A stretch of 64,000 nt of DNA from Phytoactinopolyspora halophila (lineage in GTDB: Bacteria > Actinomycetota > Actinomycetes > Jiangellales > Jiangellaceae): NCBI RefSeq assembly GCF_003287285.1, contig NZ_QMIG01000016.1, positions 1 through 64,000 of the forward strand, written 5' to 3'. Positions 11,577 through 47,753 of the stretch are shown here, one piece after another. The position numbers and the translations under genes were made by a program. Every line of letters starts with the position of its first letter. Within the stretch, counting starts at the first letter, position 1. The notes beneath the pieces were generated by a model. The model was not told the DNA's origin. It saw only the letters and a list, made by a program, of their open reading frames with translations, and did not search any database.

Positions 11577-11990
11577 ATGCCAGCCCGCAGCCGTGCCCGT
11601 AAGCGGGCGCTTGACATCCTGTTCGAGTCGGAGCAGCAAGGGCGGCCGCTCGGCTCGACCTTGTCCCGGCACCGGGACACCCCCGAGCGCCCGCTGAACG
11701 AGTACACCGTCACCCTCGTCGAAGGCGTGATCGCGCACCGGGAGCGTATCGACGAGCTGCTGGCGACGTATGCCGAAGGCTGGAGCCTGGAGCGGATGCC
11801 GGCAGTGGACCGCAATGTGTTGCGGATCGGTGCGTACGAGGTTCTGTACTGTGACGACGTTCCCGACCCCGTGGCGATCAGCGAGGCGGTGGCACTGGCG
11901 CGCGACCTGTCAACCGACGAATCTCCCACGTTCGTCAACGGCCTGCTCGCCCGCCTGGCGTCCATCAAGCCGTCCACCCCTTCCGGCTGA
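11577..11990 (+). CDS. nusB: Transcription antitermination factor NusB
   Basis: A 137-residue all-helical protein with the NusB features RSRARKRALDILFESEQQG at the N-terminus, LVEGVIAHRERID, and DRNVLRIGAYEVLY. With NusE (S10) it binds boxA RNA and supports rRNA antitermination and processing. It starts 12 nt after efp, the usual actinobacterial order. It ends 28 nt before a large palindrome that lies between it and the convergent M48 protease gene. Confidence 0.95.
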   Translation: MPARSRARKRALDILFESEQQGRPLGSTLSRHRDTPERPLNEYTVTLVEGVIAHRERIDELLATYAEGWSLERMPAVDRNVLRIGAYEVLYCDDVPDPVAISEAVALARDLSTDESPTFVNGLLARLASIKPSTPSG

Positions 11991-12018
11991 CTCTTCCCGC
12001 TGATCCCGTCCCTCCTCC

Positions 12019-12073
12019 CGCTGATCATGAACACTTGTCGACCTATGAGGTCGACAAGTGTTCATGATCAGCG
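12019..12073. repeat. Palindromic repeat element, copy 1 (perfect 26-bp arms, loop ATG)
   Basis: Arms 12019-12044 and 12048-12073 are perfect reverse complements (outer part CGCTGATCATGAAC, inner part CTTGTCGACCT) around the 3-nt loop ATG. With one mismatch the pairing extends to 12011-12081. It lies between convergent nusB and the M48 gene, so it could act as a bidirectional terminator. The copy at 15187-15247 has the same arms but loop CAT, so it is inserted in the opposite orientation. Confidence 0.95.
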
Positions 12074-12098
12074 AGAGGAGGACGGGGAGAACGGGTGG

Positions 12099-13133
12099 TC
12101 AGGAGGAGCGGCGGCCGAAGACCGAGTCGAAGATCTTGCTGCCGGCATCCTGAGCGCCCCCGGCGACATCGCGCAACACTTTGATCAGCGGATCGGCGCT
12201 GCGATTCCACGATTCCTGGTACGACTTCGCCGCGTTGCGCGCCTCCTGGCTGATGGACGCGTCCTGGTCCTCGCTGCGCCGCGGGTAGTCGCCGGCGAGG
12301 ATGCGGCTGTACTCGCCGGAGCTCGCCCAATGGTCGAGCTCCGCGAGCCGGACCACCGCTTGCGGATGGCTGCGGCCGATCAAGCTGAGCAGCTTGAGCA
12401 AACCGTCCCGGGCGTCCTCGGCGGCATCGTACTCGCGGGCCTGTTCGTGGAACGCGTCGACGTCCATCTGCGCCAGCCGGGAACCACCGGCCAGCTTCAT
12501 CAGCGTGCGCTTGGCGGCGTCGGGATCTTGCAGGGTGAGCAGGCCCGCACGGTCGCACGAGAGTTCGGATTTGCGTTGCCACTCCTCGAGCGCCAGCACG
12601 ATCGCCCGCAATCCGAAGTATCCGAGGGGCAGCCAGGCCACCCGCGTCGCGAGATTGGTCAAGGCGAGCAGCAGCGTGCGGTAGATCGCGTGGCCGGAGA
12701 GGATGTGCCCCACCTCGTGTCCCACGACGAAACGCCGCTCCTCGGCGTCGAGCATGTCGAACATTCCCGTACTGACCACGATGAACGGCCGGTCCTTGCC
12801 GATGGCCATCGCGCGGGGCTGCGGATCGAGCATGACGTAAAGGTCGGGGACCTGAGAAAGATCCAGGATGTGCGCTGCGTCGACGACATCTTGATGCACG
12901 TCGGCGAACTGGGTCTCGCCGACGCGTACGGTACCGGAGAGGAAGTGCAGCCGCAGGGCGCGCTCGCTGAAGAGCCCGGCCATCTTCTTGAGCACGGTGT
13001 CGAATCCGCGCAGTGACCGCAACGCGACAAGAGCACCGCGATCCGCAGGATGCTCGTACGCGCGGGCGCTGATGTCGGGGAACCGGACACGGGTGCGATC
13101 GGGCGTTGTGGCCATACGAGCCATCGTATGCAT
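12099..13133 (-). CDS. M48-family (HtpX-like) zinc metalloprotease
   Basis: A 344-residue protein with the gluzincin motif HEVGH (139-143, FVVGHEVGHILSGH) and a downstream metal-ligand Glu region (KSELSCDRAG). A hydrophobic stretch after the motif (LLLALTNLATRVAWLPLGYFG) probably inserts in the membrane. Family role: membrane-associated proteolytic quality control. The C-terminal 60 residues are hydrophilic and Ser/Arg/Asp-rich. Start choice is uncertain: 13133 has GGGGAA upstream, while 13124 and 13115 are also in frame. It is convergent with nusB and divergent from the ABC operon. Confidence 0.85.
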   Translation of the reverse strand: MHTMARMATTPDRTRVRFPDISARAYEHPADRGALVALRSLRGFDTVLKKMAGLFSERALRLHFLSGTVRVGETQFADVHQDVVDAAHILDLSQVPDLYVMLDPQPRAMAIGKDRPFIVVSTGMFDMLDAEERRFVVGHEVGHILSGHAIYRTLLLALTNLATRVAWLPLGYFGLRAIVLALEEWQRKSELSCDRAGLLTLQDPDAAKRTLMKLAGGSRLAQMDVDAFHEQAREYDAAEDARDGLLKLLSLIGRSHPQAVVRLAELDHWASSGEYSRILAGDYPRRSEDQDASISQEARNAAKSYQESWNRSADPLIKVLRDVAGGAQDAGSKIFDSVFGRRSS

Positions 13134-13327
13134 ATCCGGTTCCCCGTGGGCCCCGACGGTGGGCACGTTCTGCGAGAAGCGTCCTGGGGTGCACCGATGA
13201 CATTTGTCATGGCGACGGCGTGCGGAATCCATCGGAACCGATGCCGGAAGAAACCAGCGAGGTGGGCGCGCACGCCCCACGATGGAGATGTCCGCAAAAC
13301 GAAAGACGCTCACGGGAGGGAGGCGCG

Positions 13328-14320
13328 GTGAGCAACGTCATCGACGTCGAAGATCTGAGCCGCCGCTACGCCGGCGGTTTCGAAGCCGTGCGCGAGGTTT
13401 CCTTCTCGGTTCGGCGGGGTGAGCTGTTCGCGCTACTGGGGACCAACGGGGCGGGAAAGACGTCCACCCTGGAAGTCCTCGAAGGGCTCGCCGAACCGAG
13501 CGGAGGCCGGGTGCGCGTACTCGGTTTCGATCCTGGCAGGGCGCGCGCGAGCGTGCGCCCCCGGATCGGGATCATGCTCCAGGAGGGCGGATTTCCGGGT
13601 GACTTGACGGTTGACGAGACCGCACGCATGTGGGCGGGCACGTTGACGTCGAGCCGGCCGGTCGGCGAGGCGTTGGAGATGGTCGAGCTCGCCCATCGCT
13701 CGAAGGTCGCGGTCGCGCAGCTTTCCGGTGGGGAACGGCGACGGCTGGATCTGGCGCTGGCCGTGCTCGGCCGCCCGGAGGTGTTGTTCCTCGACGAGCC
13801 GACCACCGGCCTGGACCCGGAGAGCCGGCAGAACACCTGGCGGCTGGTCCGCCGGCTGCTGGAGGGTGGTACGAGCGTCTTGCTGACCACGCACTACCTC
13901 GACGAGGCCGAGACGCTCGCCGATCGGCTGGCCATCATGCACGAGGGGCGGATCGTCCGGGAAGGAACGGTATCCGAGGTGGTTGCCTCCCAGCCGGCGA
14001 CGATCTCGTTCGCGTCGGGCGGGAGCGGCGGCGATCCGCAGCTACCGCCGCTCGACGGGGCGCGCATCGTCATGTCCGGCGGGCGGACCGTCATCGAGAC
14101 GGAGCACCTGCAACAGACCCTGACCCGCCTGCTGGTGTGGGCGGAGGAGCATCGGGTCGAGCTGCCCGAGCTCGCGGCGCGTCCGGCCTCACTCGAGCAG
14201 GTTTTCCTGGCCGTGGCCGAGCATGGTGACGGATCGCCGCCGGCCGGTTCCGGGGATGCCGAGCTGCGGGCCGAGACGCTGACGGGCGCGCCCGGGACAT
14301 CTCCCGGGACGGGGAGGTGA
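13328..14320 (+). CDS. ABC transporter ATP-binding protein (DrrA/NodI type)
   Basis: A 330-residue ABC-2-type ATPase. It has Walker A GTNGAGKTS, the Q-loop in IMLQEGGF, signature LSGGERRR, Walker B VLFLDEPTTGLDPE, and H-loop TTHYLDEAE. A C-terminal extension of about 100 residues follows, as in antibiotic or lipid exporters. It pairs with the membrane protein at 14326. The GTG start at 13328 has GGGAGG about 8 nt upstream. The kinase/regulator pair that follows (15271-17309) suggests the DesKR-like ABC arrangement in which a two-component system controls the pump. The exported substrate cannot be told. Confidence 0.92.
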   Translation: MSNVIDVEDLSRRYAGGFEAVREVSFSVRRGELFALLGTNGAGKTSTLEVLEGLAEPSGGRVRVLGFDPGRARASVRPRIGIMLQEGGFPGDLTVDETARMWAGTLTSSRPVGEALEMVELAHRSKVAVAQLSGGERRRLDLALAVLGRPEVLFLDEPTTGLDPESRQNTWRLVRRLLEGGTSVLLTTHYLDEAETLADRLAIMHEGRIVREGTVSEVVASQPATISFASGGSGGDPQLPPLDGARIVMSGGRTVIETEHLQQTLTRLLVWAEEHRVELPELAARPASLEQVFLAVAEHGDGSPPAGSGDAELRAETLTGAPGTSPGTGR

Positions 14321-14325
14321 CGACG

Positions 14326-15177
14326 ATGAGCACACAGGCATTCCATGGCACGGACGGCGCACCTCGCGACGTCGACGGCCGGGCGGGCCGGCTTCGGGGC
14401 ACGTTCCGCCGCGTCTGGTCGCTGACACGTGCCGAGGTGACGCTGCTGTCGCGGAACCGCACGGCGTTGCTCGTGGCGCTGGTCTTTCCCGTGCTCTCCG
14501 TTCTGGCGCTGCTGACCTTCGACCTCGAGGAAGGTGATGCGGCCGGTACCGGAGCGCTGACCGTCATCATGTTCGTCGGTGTGGCCTTGCTGTACATCGT
14601 GTACTACAACCTGGTCAGCACCTACGTCGCCCGGCGCGAGGACCTGGTCCTGAAGCGGCTGCGTACCGGCGAGCTCTCGGACCCGGAGATCCTTGCAGGA
14701 GCGGCCATGCCGGCGGTGCTGCTCGCCGCGGGGCAGATCGCCGTGGCGGTCGGGGCAGCGTTGACGTTCTTGGATCTGGAGGCGCCGGTCAACGTCGTGC
14801 TCGTCGCCGGTGCGGTCGTCGGCGGAGTCGTGCTGTTCGCGCTTCTCGCGGCGGCGACGACCAAGATCACGCGGAATGCGGAGATGGCCCAGATGAGTAC
14901 CATGCCCGTCTTCATCGTCTGTCTGATCTTTTCGGGCATGGTGGCGCCCCTCGACGCGTTCAGCGACCGGGTGGCCGACATCGCGCAGTTCGTCCCGCTG
15001 ACTCCGGTGATCGATCTGACGCGGCTCGGGCTTCTGGGTACCACTGGCACCGAACCCGCGGTGGGATTCACCGAGAGTTTCGCCGAGGCAGTCACGCCGG
15101 CGGCGATACTGGCGCTGTGGATCGCGATCGGATACGCGGCGACGCGCCGCTGGTTCCGCTGGGAGCCCCGCCGCTGA
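14326..15177 (+). CDS. ABC-2 type transporter permease
   Basis: A 283-residue membrane protein with six predicted helices (for example ALLVALVFPVLSVLALL, LTVIMFVGVALLYIVYY and VNVVLVAGAVVGGVVLFALL) and an ABC-2 signature region around FIVCLIFSGMVAPLDAF. A long N-terminal cytoplasmic stretch precedes the first helix. The ATG at 14326 has GGGGAGG 8 nt upstream; a GTG at 14317 lies too close to that site. It is partner of the ATPase at 13328. It ends 9 nt before a palindromic repeat element that separates it from the sensor kinase. Confidence 0.9.
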   Translation: MSTQAFHGTDGAPRDVDGRAGRLRGTFRRVWSLTRAEVTLLSRNRTALLVALVFPVLSVLALLTFDLEEGDAAGTGALTVIMFVGVALLYIVYYNLVSTYVARREDLVLKRLRTGELSDPEILAGAAMPAVLLAAGQIAVAVGAALTFLDLEAPVNVVLVAGAVVGGVVLFALLAAATTKITRNAEMAQMSTMPVFIVCLIFSGMVAPLDAFSDRVADIAQFVPLTPVIDLTRLGLLGTTGTEPAVGFTESFAEAVTPAAILALWIAIGYAATRRWFRWEPRR

Positions 15178-15186
15178 CCCCGCCCC

Positions 15187-15247
15187 CTCCGCTGATCATG
15201 AACACTTGTCGACCTCATAGGTCGACAAGTGTTCATGATCAGCGGAG
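15187..15247. repeat. Palindromic repeat element, copy 2 (29-bp arms, loop CAT)
   Basis: Arms 15187-15215 and 15219-15247 are perfect reverse complements around CAT. The core is the same as at 12019-12073 but read in the opposite orientation. It lies between the permease and the kinase, in what is usually one operon. A possible -10 (TATCCT, 15250-15255) follows directly, so the element may separate two transcription units. Confidence 0.95.
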
Positions 15248-15270: not shown

Positions 15271-16638
15271 ATGATGGCGATGACGGGGTTGGTGGCGCGC
15301 TGGCACGAGCGCGGCAGTGCCGAACGAGTTGACCTTTACACGCGCCTGTCGCTCTACGCGCTGTACGCCCTCGAACTGCCGTTGGCGCTCATGATCGTCA
15401 ACGCCGCCGACCGGGCCGACGACGCGGCGGCGATCACGTTCGCGTGCCTGGCCGGAGCACAGGCGGTGACCGGCGTCGTCGTCCTTCGCCGGGGCCTGGG
15501 CTGGTTCCTGGGTACGCGCACGTGGCCGGTGCGGATGGTCGCGGTGAGCGGCATCCTCGCCGTCGCCGGGGCGCTGGCGGGAATCATCGCCTTTCCCTTC
15601 ACCGCGGGTGGTGCCGACAATCCCGGCCAGGGCGACGCCCTGGCGCTGGTCACGATCTTCTTTCTCGTCATGCTCACGCCACGGCTGTCGATGCGGTGGC
15701 TCCTGCTGCCGACCGGCGCGCTGGCGGCGGTGGTTGGTGTGGCGATGTTGCTCACGGGTTCGCCGGTACGCGCCGCAGCGGGCGTGGCGCTGGCATGCGT
15801 GATCGGCGGGATCGCCGGCGGGTTCGGATTCCGGACGTCGATCTGGATCCTGGGCATCGTCTGGGAGCTGGAACGCTCGCGCGGGGCGCAAGCACGGCTG
15901 GCCGTGGCGGAGGAGCGCCTGCGAATCGCCCGGGATCTGCACGACGTCATCGGGCGCAACCTGGCGGTGATCGCGTTGAAGAGCGAGCTGGGGGCGCAGC
16001 TCGCTCGTCGCGGGAGGGACGAGGCGGCCGACGAGATGCTGGAGGTTCACCGGATCGCTCAGGAGTCGCTGCGTGAGGTACGGGAGGTGGTCCGCGGGTA
16101 CCGCAGCGCCGACTTGCCCGCCGAGCTGGACGGGGCCCGTGCCGTGTTGCGCTCGGCCGGTGTACGCACCCGTGTGCTCGGGGACGGAGCGGACCTGCCG
16201 GCTGGCGCGCAGGCGGCGCTGGCGTGGGTGGTGCGGGAGGGGACGACCAACATCTTGCGGCACAGCGATGCGAGCGAATGCACGATCACCGTCGACATCG
16301 ACGATCCGGCGGGCAGCGCGGAGAGCCGAGCGCGCGATGCCGGCGACGCGTCGGATGCGGGGGCGAACACGGGGGCACCGGCTGGGACGGCGATAGTGAC
16401 GATGGAGAACGACGGCGTGGCCGCCTGGCACTCTGAGGCCGTGGCTGACCTGGGCAGCGGGCTACGTGGCCTGGCCGAACGGCTGGGCGAGGTGAACGGG
16501 TCGCTCGAGGCGCGCCGGGTGAGCGGGGACCGGTTCGTGTTGCGCGCGCGGGTTCCGCGGGAGGTGCGCCCGATCTCCGGCGGCGAGTCCAGCGTGCACG
16601 GGGGCGGGTCCGGCGTGGAAGGGATGGACGCGGGATGA
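15271..16638 (+). CDS. DesK/NarL-type sensor histidine kinase
   Basis: A 455-residue kinase. About six membrane helices (roughly 25-195) form the sensor. They are followed by a HisKA_3 dimerisation helix with phospho-acceptor H224 (IARDLHDVIGRN) and an HATPase_c domain (REGTTNILRHSDA as N-box; GSGLRGLAERL as G-box). Residues about 345-370 are an Ala/Gly/Asp-rich insert. The ATG at 15271 has AGAGG 9 nt upstream; an in-frame GTG at 15229 lies inside the palindrome and is unlikely. It overlaps the response regulator by ATGA. It probably senses membrane or drug stress and controls the neighbouring ABC pump. Confidence 0.9.
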   Translation: MMAMTGLVARWHERGSAERVDLYTRLSLYALYALELPLALMIVNAADRADDAAAITFACLAGAQAVTGVVVLRRGLGWFLGTRTWPVRMVAVSGILAVAGALAGIIAFPFTAGGADNPGQGDALALVTIFFLVMLTPRLSMRWLLLPTGALAAVVGVAMLLTGSPVRAAAGVALACVIGGIAGGFGFRTSIWILGIVWELERSRGAQARLAVAEERLRIARDLHDVIGRNLAVIALKSELGAQLARRGRDEAADEMLEVHRIAQESLREVREVVRGYRSADLPAELDGARAVLRSAGVRTRVLGDGADLPAGAQAALAWVVREGTTNILRHSDASECTITVDIDDPAGSAESRARDAGDASDAGANTGAPAGTAIVTMENDGVAAWHSEAVADLGSGLRGLAERLGEVNGSLEARRVSGDRFVLRARVPREVRPISGGESSVHGGGSGVEGMDAG

Positions 16639-17309
16639 GTGCGGACGGGCCGAGCGGCGGGCGAGCGGACCCGGAACGGCAGCTCCACGAGGATGTGCCG
16701 TCCACGGTGCGCGTGTTGCTGGCCGACGACGAGAATCTGGTCCGTACAGCCATGCGAGCGCTGCTGGCGCTGGAGGACGACATCGATGTCGTCGCCGAGG
16801 CCGCTTCGGGCGACGAGGCGCTCGCGATGGCGCGGGCACACCGGCCCGACGTGGCGGTGCTCGACTTGCAGATGCCGGACATGGATGGCATCGCGGTGGC
16901 CGAGACGCTGCACGAGGAGCTGGAGTCCTGCTCGACGATGATCGTGACCAGCCACGGCCGCCCGGGGTATCTGAAGCGCGCGCTCTCCGCCGGGGTGCGG
17001 GGGTTCGTGCCCAAGACCGTTTCCGGTCAAGTGCTGGCCGACGTCGTGCGCACGCTGCACGGCGGCGGGCGCTATGTCGACCCGGAGCTAGCCGCCGAGG
17101 CGATCGCGGCCGGTGACAGCCCGCTCACGCCGCGTGAGGCGGATGTGCTCGAACTCGCCGCCGACGGCGCACCGATCGAAGAGATCGCCCCTCGCGTGGC
17201 GCTCTCGCCGGGAACGGTACGCAACTACCTGTCCTCGATCGCGGCCAAGCTCGGCGCGGCGAACCGGCACGAGGCGGTGCACATCGCCCGTCGCCACGGC
17301 TGGATCTAG
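16635..17309 (+). CDS. NarL/DesR-family response regulator
   Basis: A 224-residue regulator. The receiver domain (about 25-145) has acidic pocket D31/D32, phospho-acceptor D77 (VAVLDLQMPDMDG) and K127 (FVPKTVSG). A LuxR-type helix-turn-helix follows (about 160-222, LTPREADVLELAADGAPIEE and LSPGTVRNYLSS). It has about 23 extra N-terminal residues. It is translationally coupled to the kinase. The target is probably the ABC operon just upstream. Confidence 0.93.
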   Translation: MSADGPSGGRADPERQLHEDVPSTVRVLLADDENLVRTAMRALLALEDDIDVVAEAASGDEALAMARAHRPDVAVLDLQMPDMDGIAVAETLHEELESCSTMIVTSHGRPGYLKRALSAGVRGFVPKTVSGQVLADVVRTLHGGGRYVDPELAAEAIAAGDSPLTPREADVLELAADGAPIEEIAPRVALSPGTVRNYLSSIAAKLGAANRHEAVHIARRHGWI

Positions 17310-35844: not shown

Positions 35845-36965
35845 GTAGGCGATACCGGCGGCTCTTCGACACGGTGCTGTCGCGCCTCGACGCGGAGCGG
35901 GTGCACCGCGTGGCGGTGGGCGCGCTGCGCGTGGTCTCGCGCGTGCCGGGCGTGGCGCCGGTGGCCTGGCGCAAGACCATCCGCCACGATCCCGACACCG
36001 GGGTGGAGGTGTTCGGCCTGCGGTTTCCTGGCCGGCTCGGGCTGGCCGCCGGCTTCGACAAGAACGCCGTGGGCGTGGACGCCCTCGCCGCGCTGGGTTT
36101 CGCGTTCGTCGAGGTCGGGACGGTCACGGGCCGCGCGCAGCCGGGGAATCCCCGGCCCCGGCTGCACCGGCTGATGCGCGATCGGGCAATCGTCAACCGG
36201 ATGGGATTCAACAACGACGGCGCGGCCGTCGTGGCGGCCCGGCTGGCGCGTCGTCGTCGGAGGCGGCGCGCCCTTCCGGTCGTAGTCGGCGTGAACATCG
36301 GCAAGACGAAGGCGGTACCCGAAGACGAGGCGGTCGCCGACTACGAGGCCAGCACCCGGATGCTGGCGCCGTACGCGGATTACCTCGTGGTGAACGTCAG
36401 CTCACCCAACACGCCCGGCTTGCGCGACCTGCAGGCCGTCGCGCAGTTACGCCCGTTGGTGACGGCCGTGCGGGCGCAAGCCGACGCGGTGAGCTCGCGG
36501 CGGGTGCCGCTGCTGGTGAAGATCGCCCCGGATCTCAGTGACGATGACGTGCTGGCCGTGGCCGATCTGGCGGTGGAGGTGGGCCTGGACGGCATCATTG
36601 CCACGAACACCACCATCTCGCGGGACGGGTTGTCGTCGTCGCCGGAGGAGGTCGACGCGGCGGGCGCGGGCGGCGTGTCCGGTGCGCCGCTGGCGAAACG
36701 GTCGTTGGAGGTGCTGTTGCTGCTGTCGCGCCACCTGGATGCGGTGGTCGACGAGGCGAGTGCGGCGGACCCGGACGCGACCCGCCGCCCGGTGCTGATC
36801 TCGGCCGGTGGGATCGAAACCGCCGAGGACGCCTACGAGCGGCTGCGCGCCGGCGCGACGCTGGTGCAGGCGTACACGGCGTTCGTGTACGGCGGGCCGT
36901 CCTGGCCGTCGCGAGTCCAGCACCGCCTCGATTCCATGATCATGAACGCTCGTCGTTCCATGTAG
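35841..36965 (+). CDS. pyrD: Dihydroorotate dehydrogenase (quinone), class 2
   Basis: A 374-residue flavoenzyme that oxidises dihydroorotate to orotate using membrane quinone. The N-terminal amphipathic region ([15 protein letters not shown]) is the class 2 membrane association helix. FMN and catalytic motifs include [35 protein letters not shown] (catalytic Ser) and [11 protein letters not shown]. An Arg-rich loop [10 protein letters not shown] is odd. The GTG start overlaps carB. The last nine codons and the stop lie in a palindromic repeat element (36937-36985), which therefore shaped the C-terminus. Confidence 0.95.
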
Positions 36966-36985
36966 TCGCCTAGTGTTCATGATCA
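36937..36985. repeat. Palindromic repeat element, copy 3 (degenerate, inside the pyrD 3' end)
   Basis: Ends TGATCATGAAC (36937-36947) and GTTCATGATCA (36975-36985) match the family termini; the centre is less symmetric. It supplies the last codons and TAG of pyrD. Its right edge (GATCAGCG) runs into the pyrF ribosome site. Its centre resembles the copy at 44922-44970 read on the other strand. Confidence 0.88.
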
Positions 36986-44050: not shown

Positions 44051-44108
44051 CCGCCACCCCAACTCCCGCCCCGCTCCACCCGCACCTCGCCCCGCCCCAC
44101 CCGCTGAT

Positions 44109-44263
44109 CGCTCTACCTGTGCTCCGCTCTACCTGTGCTCCGCTCTACCTGTGCTCCGCTCTACCCGTGCTCCGCTTCACCCGTGCACCGCTCTACCCGT
44201 GCTCCGCTTCACCCGTGCTCCGCTTCACCCGTGCTCCGCTTCACCCGTGCTCCGCTTCACCCG
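44109..44263 (+). repeat. 16-bp tandem repeat array, nine full units plus a partial
   Basis: Units of the form CGCTCTACCTGTGCTC or CGCTTCACCCGTGCTC run without spacers from 44109 to 44252, with a partial to 44263. Units 1-3 are identical and units 7-9 are identical, so blocks have expanded separately. 16 nt is not a multiple of 3 and no gene is seen. It lies just after priA in the 937-nt spacer 44051-44987. Confidence 0.93.
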
Positions 44264-44510
44264 CGGGGTTGTGCCGACCTGGTGGTGAGCACGTTGGCGA
44301 GCCGCTCACACACAACCAGCACACGTGACATCAATAGGAGCATCGATCTTCAGGAGCATGCGATCTTCACGACTGGCGAGCCGGGCCCGTGAGTGATCGA
44401 TGTGGAGTTTCCGCCCGTCGTGCGTAGAGAATGGGCCGCTATCACGACCCGTGTACTACACAGTCCCAGCCGAAACTCCGCATCGATCACCGGGCGGCGA
44501 GCATCGGGCA

Positions 44511-44921: not shown

Positions 44922-44970
44922 TGATCGTGAACACAAAGCGACTACATAGAACGATTAGTGTTCATGATCA
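44922..44970. repeat. Palindromic repeat element, copy 4 (degenerate)
   Basis: Ends TGATCGTGAACAC (44922-44934) and GTGTTCATGATCA (44958-44970) match the family. The centre GCGACTACAT-GAACGA matches the reverse complement of the copy at 36937-36985. It lies 18 nt from the 3' end of the convergent ECF ATPase gene, as copy 1 does between convergent genes. Confidence 0.88.
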
Positions 44971-47682: not shown

Positions 47683-47753
47683 TTGATCTTGAACTTTCCG
47701 GGGTTCGGGTTTCGCGATAATGACGTGTGGCCCCCCGGAAAGTTCAAGATCAA
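47683..47753. terminator. Hairpin with 21-bp perfect arms after the HTH gene
   Basis: Arms 47683-47703 (starting TTGATCTTGAAC) and 47733-47753 are perfect reverse complements around a 29-nt loop, 28 nt after the stop. It probably terminates the HTH transcript. Its TGATCTTGAAC ends recall the TGATCATGAAC palindrome family, so it may be a related mobile repeat. Confidence 0.75.

Follow-up and report, generated by a model that had tools for sequence, protein, structure and literature searches.

Two near-perfect palindromes in opposite orientation, with a protease gene and an ABC transporter gene pair between them, raise the question of what these repeats are, how they reached their positions and how their likeness is maintained. 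The whole stretch of DNA analyzed in this study (64,000 nucleotides, hereafter the window) lies on contig C6 of a 5.04-Mb draft genome (G000). By direct reading and a repeat search, element 1 was found to consist of perfect 26-bp arms (12019-12044 and 12048-12073) around the loop ATG, and element 2 of perfect 29-bp arms (15187-15215 and 15219-15247) around the loop CAT, in agreement with the preliminary description of this locus. The mutual inversion reported there is also confirmed, as 12018-12073 and the reverse complement of 15190-15245 agree at 100% over 56 nt. Element 1, whose hairpin reaches 12004-12088 at 90% pairing, is located between the convergent nusB (11577-11990, plus strand) and M48 peptidase (12099-13133, minus strand) genes, with its conserved unit at 12022-12070. 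Beyond the M48 gene lie an ABC transporter ATPase gene (13328-14320, plus strand) and an ABC-2 permease gene (14317-15177, plus strand). Element 2 (15187-15247, conserved unit 15193-15241) is located between the permease stop (15177) and the start (15271) of a histidine kinase gene (15271-16638, plus strand), which is followed by a response regulator gene (16635-17309). RNA folding gave -74.1 kcal/mol (z -15.3) for element 1 and -56.5 kcal/mol (z -13.4) for element 2.

Two further, diverged copies were found in the window. Element 3 (36937-36985), whose core has diverged, lies upstream of pyrF and overlaps the 3' terminus of a pyrD-like gene, including its stop codon. Element 4 (44922-44970), with one outer-arm mismatch, is separated by 17 bp from the 3' end of a minus-strand ABC ATPase gene. 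With up to two mismatches, the half-site TGATCATGAACAC is matched 11 times in the window against 0.64 expected, and the pattern TGATCATGAACNC-N(10-36)-GTTCATGATCA occurs 119 times in the whole genome against 0 for the backward control. The palindromes are therefore beyond chance. Moreover, the 12022/15193 pair, 3.1 kb apart, is the sole exactly identical core pair among 58 sampled copies of this genome; on the simplest reading of these sequences, it would stem from a single local event, either copying or conversion, with the orientation reversed. The preliminary description had suggested that the palindromes could be REP-like units and that their perfect arms imply recent spread or homogenization; a dispersed family of this kind is borne out by the copy number, the relatives lacking the pair and this single identical core.

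Four of the five sampled genomes of Phytoactinopolyspora, treated here as a sister genus, contain 41, 89, 66 and 9 copies, and 0 copies were found in the fifth or in the other genera of the family that were searched. A scan of named genomes returned, among the matches listed, only Phytoactinopolyspora halotolerans, P. limicola and P. endophytica. This genus belongs to Jiangellaceae, and the palindromes are accordingly a Jiangellaceae family. Among 396 genomes sampled across the phylum, no match was found except in the genome studied here. Carriage by phages or plasmids was rejected, as the viral contigs, phages and plasmids searched gave no match to the pattern. In the literature searched, no description of this Jiangellaceae palindrome family was found.

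About 900 kb of the genome was covered in stretches. Among the 44 copies in the 860 kb examined in full, 29 are 49 bp long, 14 are 50 bp and one is 47 bp. The typical unit of 49-50 bp is composed of outer arms TGATCATGAACAC and a variable inner core of 23-24 bp, and in all species profiled the outermost 11-13 bp of both arms hardly vary. Just outside the arms lies CCGC (in G000) or CCCA (in Phytoactinopolyspora), and the foot consensus in every profiled species reads CCGC/CCCA and then TGATCA. The inner core is partly or wholly self-complementary and centred on about TATG. The 5' side of the palindrome is C-rich and its 3' side G-rich. The core consensus differs from species to species, being about TAGTCGACCTATGTGGTCGACTA in G000, TTTGCCGTGCYATRGCACGGCAAA in G007, TAACCGTGCTATGTGAACGGTTA in G010 and G012, and TAGTTGACCATATTGGTCAACTA in G004. 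Pairing also extends into flanks that are specific to single copies, with complementary runs of at least 10 bp in 18 of the 119 copies against 0.7 with permuted flanks; the corresponding signal in G010 is not significant. In G007 and G010, identical elements are present at unrelated sites with unrelated flanks, and the differing flanks of the identical G007 elements are still internally complementary, C-rich on one side and G-rich on the other. In Rfam, all matches were to generic hairpins below the threshold, nearly all of them miRNA models, and a known Rfam structured RNA family was rejected because no match exceeded the gathering score.

The fixed spacing of 49-50 bp and the near-invariant outer arms are what would be expected of binding sites for a DNA-binding protein, such as a nucleoid, segregation or repair factor, whose dimer would bind the two arms. 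The rarity of solo half-sites, 5 in 860 kb and 125/130 half-sites against 119/118 pairs genome-wide, would also fit. However, such sites would leave the self-complementary cores, the species-specific core consensus, the copy-specific flank pairing and the bias towards gene 3' ends described below unexplained, and relatives have anywhere from 0 to 119 copies, so that this explanation is considered very improbable. The solo half-sites examined belong to chimeras with another palindrome family or to a degenerate pair, or are chance matches, and their interpretation as ends of insertion sequences was accordingly rejected.

Comparison with relatives showed a dispersed family whose copies are in many places lineage-specific. 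All four window sites are empty of this family in every relative compared. The nusB-M48 neighbourhood is syntenic in relatives, none of which carries the element at the junction, and the order of the M48 gene, the ABC pair and the kinase gene is kept without elements in G004, G007 and G008. A composite transposon bounded by the inverted pair was rejected on this ground; the preliminary description correctly placed the M48 gene and the ABC pair between the two elements, but this bracketing carries no special meaning. From the permease stop to a conserved TGAGAGGCT-like motif before the kinase gene, about 8-11 nt were counted by eye in relatives and about 76 in G000. The net gain of about 65 bp exceeds the 49-bp unit, suggesting that some paired flank arrived along with the element or formed afterwards. 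No direct repeat is evident by eye beside identical copies, the empty non-coding sites are too diverged for a base-exact comparison of target-site duplication, and no excision product was seen.

The positions of the copies relative to genes, called with a simple coding-score script, are biased. Among the 55 copies of G000 with two neighbours, 19 are in convergent, 29 in tandem and 7 in divergent gaps, whereas gap lengths predict 9.9, 25 and 20.1 (p 1.5e-4); the element is thus depleted in divergent gaps, though some copies are present there. In five species, the TGA with which the element opens serves as the stop codon at 75 of 226 adjacent gene 3' ends, and among the 104 gene ends overlapping an element, these 75 are in the TGA stop frame (p 7e-16 against an expectation of one in three). 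This excess would arise either from selection for an immediate stop or from a preference for stop-codon sites. Gene ends, and even the stop codon, are therefore repeatedly provided by a dispersed repeat. At one locus, a gene for an AMP-ligase, the element lies in frame within the coding sequence. Except for ABC transporters and the shared loci, no protein family constantly adjoins the elements.

This location raises the possibility that the elements are structured terminators without a U-tract, bidirectional between convergent genes and maintained by selection, with their likeness being incidental or due to gene conversion among terminators. The very stable predicted hairpins, the preference for convergent gaps, the strand asymmetry of C-rich and G-rich sides, and the presence of other palindromes at the same junctions in relatives, as though a hairpin were useful there, would agree with such a role. 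Against it, TTTT is present within 15 nt downstream at only 1 of 226 gene ends, a terminator scan flagged none of the elements, and in tandem contexts sense-strand G-U pairs are not commoner than A-C mismatches (29 and 23, p 0.49), giving no signal of RNA-level selection. In addition, the element is not conserved at any of the four window sites, some copies occupy divergent gaps, one gene carries the element in frame, and termination does not require outer arms that are near-identical in about 120 copies and in five species. Selected terminators are thus an improbable explanation. For want of a U-tract, the elements were rejected as members of the intrinsic (Rho-independent) class, and with the window sites not conserved, canonical terminators are unlikely. 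The suggestion of structured terminators in the preliminary description is weakened as well, though hairpins predicted to be this stable may affect transcription and transcript ends.

To understand how the copies evolve, 194 copies from five species, of about 325 in total, were compared. About a dozen junctions with matching neighbours are occupied in more than one species. At the purine nucleoside phosphorylase (PNP) gene, G000, G004 and G007 have an element that begins at the native stop, and seven others lack it. In the AMP-ligase gene, it forms an in-frame insert of 17 aa within a short variable linker in G000, G010 and G012, the insert in G010 and G012 being of the MIMN.NRSYSTVSVHDH type. 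On a rough estimate, the pairs among G000, G004 and G007 share three to five sites each against fewer than one expected, and these overlaps are therefore unlikely to reflect chance coincidence. At shared sites, loops that can be oriented agree in direction. The flanking genes, the position and these loops suggest that the sites are homologous; independent insertion at hot spots could also account for them, because other palindrome families hold some of the same junctions in relatives.

If the shared sites are homologous, their cores have been homogenized within each genome. The 15 orthologous core pairs differ by 10.9 edits on average, against 11.45 for random between-species pairs and 6.8 within species, and 14 of 15 shared-site cores are nearer to the paralogues of their own genome than to the orthologue. 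In the close pair G010 and G012, orthologous cores still agree (1-3 edits). The mean core edit distance is 4.5-5.8 within G004, G007 and G010 and 9-13 between species types; in G000, cores are nearly as diverse within the genome (9.2) as between species (9.9-12). The signal of concerted evolution is thus carried mainly by G004, G007 and G010. From these comparisons, the cores appear to drift and to be homogenized within genomes while the sites and the outer arms stay. Moreover, copies less than 5 kb apart have cores more alike than shuffled copies in G000 (p 0.004-0.006) and G010 (p 0.019), with no significance in G004 and G007, where 4 and 3 such pairs are available.

Such a pattern might be produced by an old family that no longer transposes, is vertically inherited, and changes only through ectopic gene conversion or templated hairpin repair. 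Sites common to several genera with converted cores, the likeness of nearby copies, the complementary copy-specific flanks, as would arise from template switching, and chimeric copies that fuse half of this family with half of another palindrome family would be accounted for in this way. Copies specific to one lineage, which are numerous and include the four window elements, and the identical elements at unrelated sites in G007 and G010 would not, and we regard such a family as unlikely. Another reading, likewise unlikely, is active core exchange in place, in which an enzyme or the repair of hairpin breaks would read the fixed arms and swap the core, so that about 100 dispersed 49-bp palindromes would evolve in concert without moving. 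If true, this would be a new mode of homogenization for dispersed bacterial DNA, operating without a Y1 transposase.

The palindromes are probably best explained as a non-autonomous, REP-like family of mobile repeats, given their dispersed copies, placement at 3' ends and homogenized cores, with a putative mobilizer that would act in trans and not be of the Y1 type. Copies of this family are kept chiefly at gene 3' ends in convergent and tandem gaps, often supplying the stop TGA, and, at the set of shared sites, provided that these are homologous, cores are homogenized within each genome while arms and positions stay. Copying or core exchange would proceed through a folded single-stranded hairpin or the repair of a broken hairpin, would be more frequent between nearby copies and would depend on a trans-acting enzyme other than a Y1 transposase. 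The location bias would stem from counter-selection of insertions into coding sequences and promoters, perhaps together with a preference for sites at stop codons. Effects on mRNA stability or transcript ends are putative and would be secondary.

The preliminary description had suggested that a TnpA-REP-type enzyme could move the units and that a Y1 transposase should be sought. This proposal failed: PF01797 (Y1 transposase) was found in 0 of 11 genomes (G000 and ten of the family), with 5 of 14 control genomes positive, and no GTAG/GTGG tetranucleotide is present 0-2 nt 5' of the hairpin in any species profiled. This foot typifies the substrates of TnpA-REP and the REP families described in PMC6006769, where Actinobacteridae have subclass 1.1 TnpAY1 only. 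Movement by TnpA-REP/RAYT was thus rejected. The family is real, abundant and REP-like in Jiangellaceae, lacks the REP transposase, and shows apparently concerted evolution of its cores at long-lived sites. REP-like palindromes are here abundant in Actinobacteria without the transposase to which REPs are attributed elsewhere, and the spread and homogenization of such repeats become a testable question.

REP/REPIN sequences are short palindromes that form persisting sequence populations inside genomes (PMC3116915, PMC8049555). The family described here resembles them in consisting of short extragenic palindromes that number about 100 or more per genome and lie mainly between genes or at their ends, but differs in having neither the RAYT-type transposase nor its foot, and in being a single symmetric unit of 49 bp in which the outer arms are fixed and the core varies. 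The lack of a dedicated transposase has also been noted for other REPs (PMC3733652); like these CGTC-tagged REPs and the Rickettsia palindromic elements (RPE; PMC3733652), our elements lack a dedicated transposase and can be read in frame as part of a coding sequence, as in the AMP-ligase copy, whereas they have no CGTC end tag, lie mostly at gene 3' ends, and are unrelated in sequence and hosts. Similar to MITEs, they are non-autonomous and multi-copy, with outer arms as TIR-like fixed ends, but they are only 49 bp long and nearly all palindrome, no parental IS with these ends was found in the sampled DNA, and no target-site duplication was seen. Inverted pairs of a fixed short word, the uptake sequence (DUS/USS), form hairpins and terminators at gene ends. 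Our elements likewise are inverted pairs of a fixed word forming hairpins at gene ends, while, opposite to uptake sequences, solo words are rare, with 5 in 860 kb and 44 pairs.

An explanation of the palindrome abundance by loss of SbcD, a hairpin nuclease, was rejected, because SbcD is present in the genome studied here. In several relatives, unrelated palindromes are present at the same junctions, namely nusB-M48, pyrD-pyrF and PNP.

In 860 kb of the genome of Phytoactinopolyspora halophila, 82 long palindromes were found in total, the majority of which are intergenic and located at the 3' ends of genes. Besides the main family, the REP-like palindrome of 49-50 bp, this genome contains a second palindrome family of ~92 bp with arms AATGATCATGTTTGGTACGTTTYCTCGGGCCGTAACACGTCTG, copies of which lie at L037:6268-6361, L055:7324-7413, L049:11637-11732 and L032:15770-15863 (L numbers denote stretches read from this genome or its relatives). 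These arms gave 33/28 matches in the genome of P. halophila and none in the ten relatives searched, and the family begins with TGATCATG, as the main family does. A third family, with a 16-nt loop between arms TTGGGYCTGCGGAACGTCCAG (19 exact matches, only in P. halophila), is found at L040:5124-5191, L048:8289-8356, L054:10194-10261 and L045:8716-8785. Additional palindromes are of the CTTCGATACCCAGACGTGCG type (L064:13939-14020, L029:1465-1538 and L044:838-915) and the CGCTGATCATCGGC type (L052:14689-14755 and L034:13187-13256).

Moreover, chimeric palindromes (L032:4460, L027:1-70 and L039:30-95) join one half of the main family to one half of the TGAGCATGAACGTTGCAAGCACCGCTTGAGCCC type, a structure that suggests an exchange of halves at the loop. 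In three species, a main-family element lies inside the AMP-ligase gene and is read in frame (L056:1787, L141:6839 and L268:1913), as are Rickettsia palindromic elements inside genes. Relatives without the main-family element carry unrelated palindromes at the nusB-M48, pyrD-pyrF and purine nucleoside phosphorylase junctions (L067:1360-1470, L153:590-680 and L178, the last at the 3' end of the phosphorylase gene).

SbcD (TIGR00619) is full-length in P. halophila and relatives G010, G012 and G014, and only weakly matched in relatives G004 and G007. The latter two also carry many main-family copies.

Within the window, a tandem array of 16-bp units GCTCCGCTCTACCTGT (44057-44264) shares an intergenic region with element 4, the diverged main-family copy at 44922-44970. 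Another palindrome, TTGATCTTGAACTTTCCGGGGTTC with a 23-nt loop (47683-47753), is similar to the main family but does not match it.
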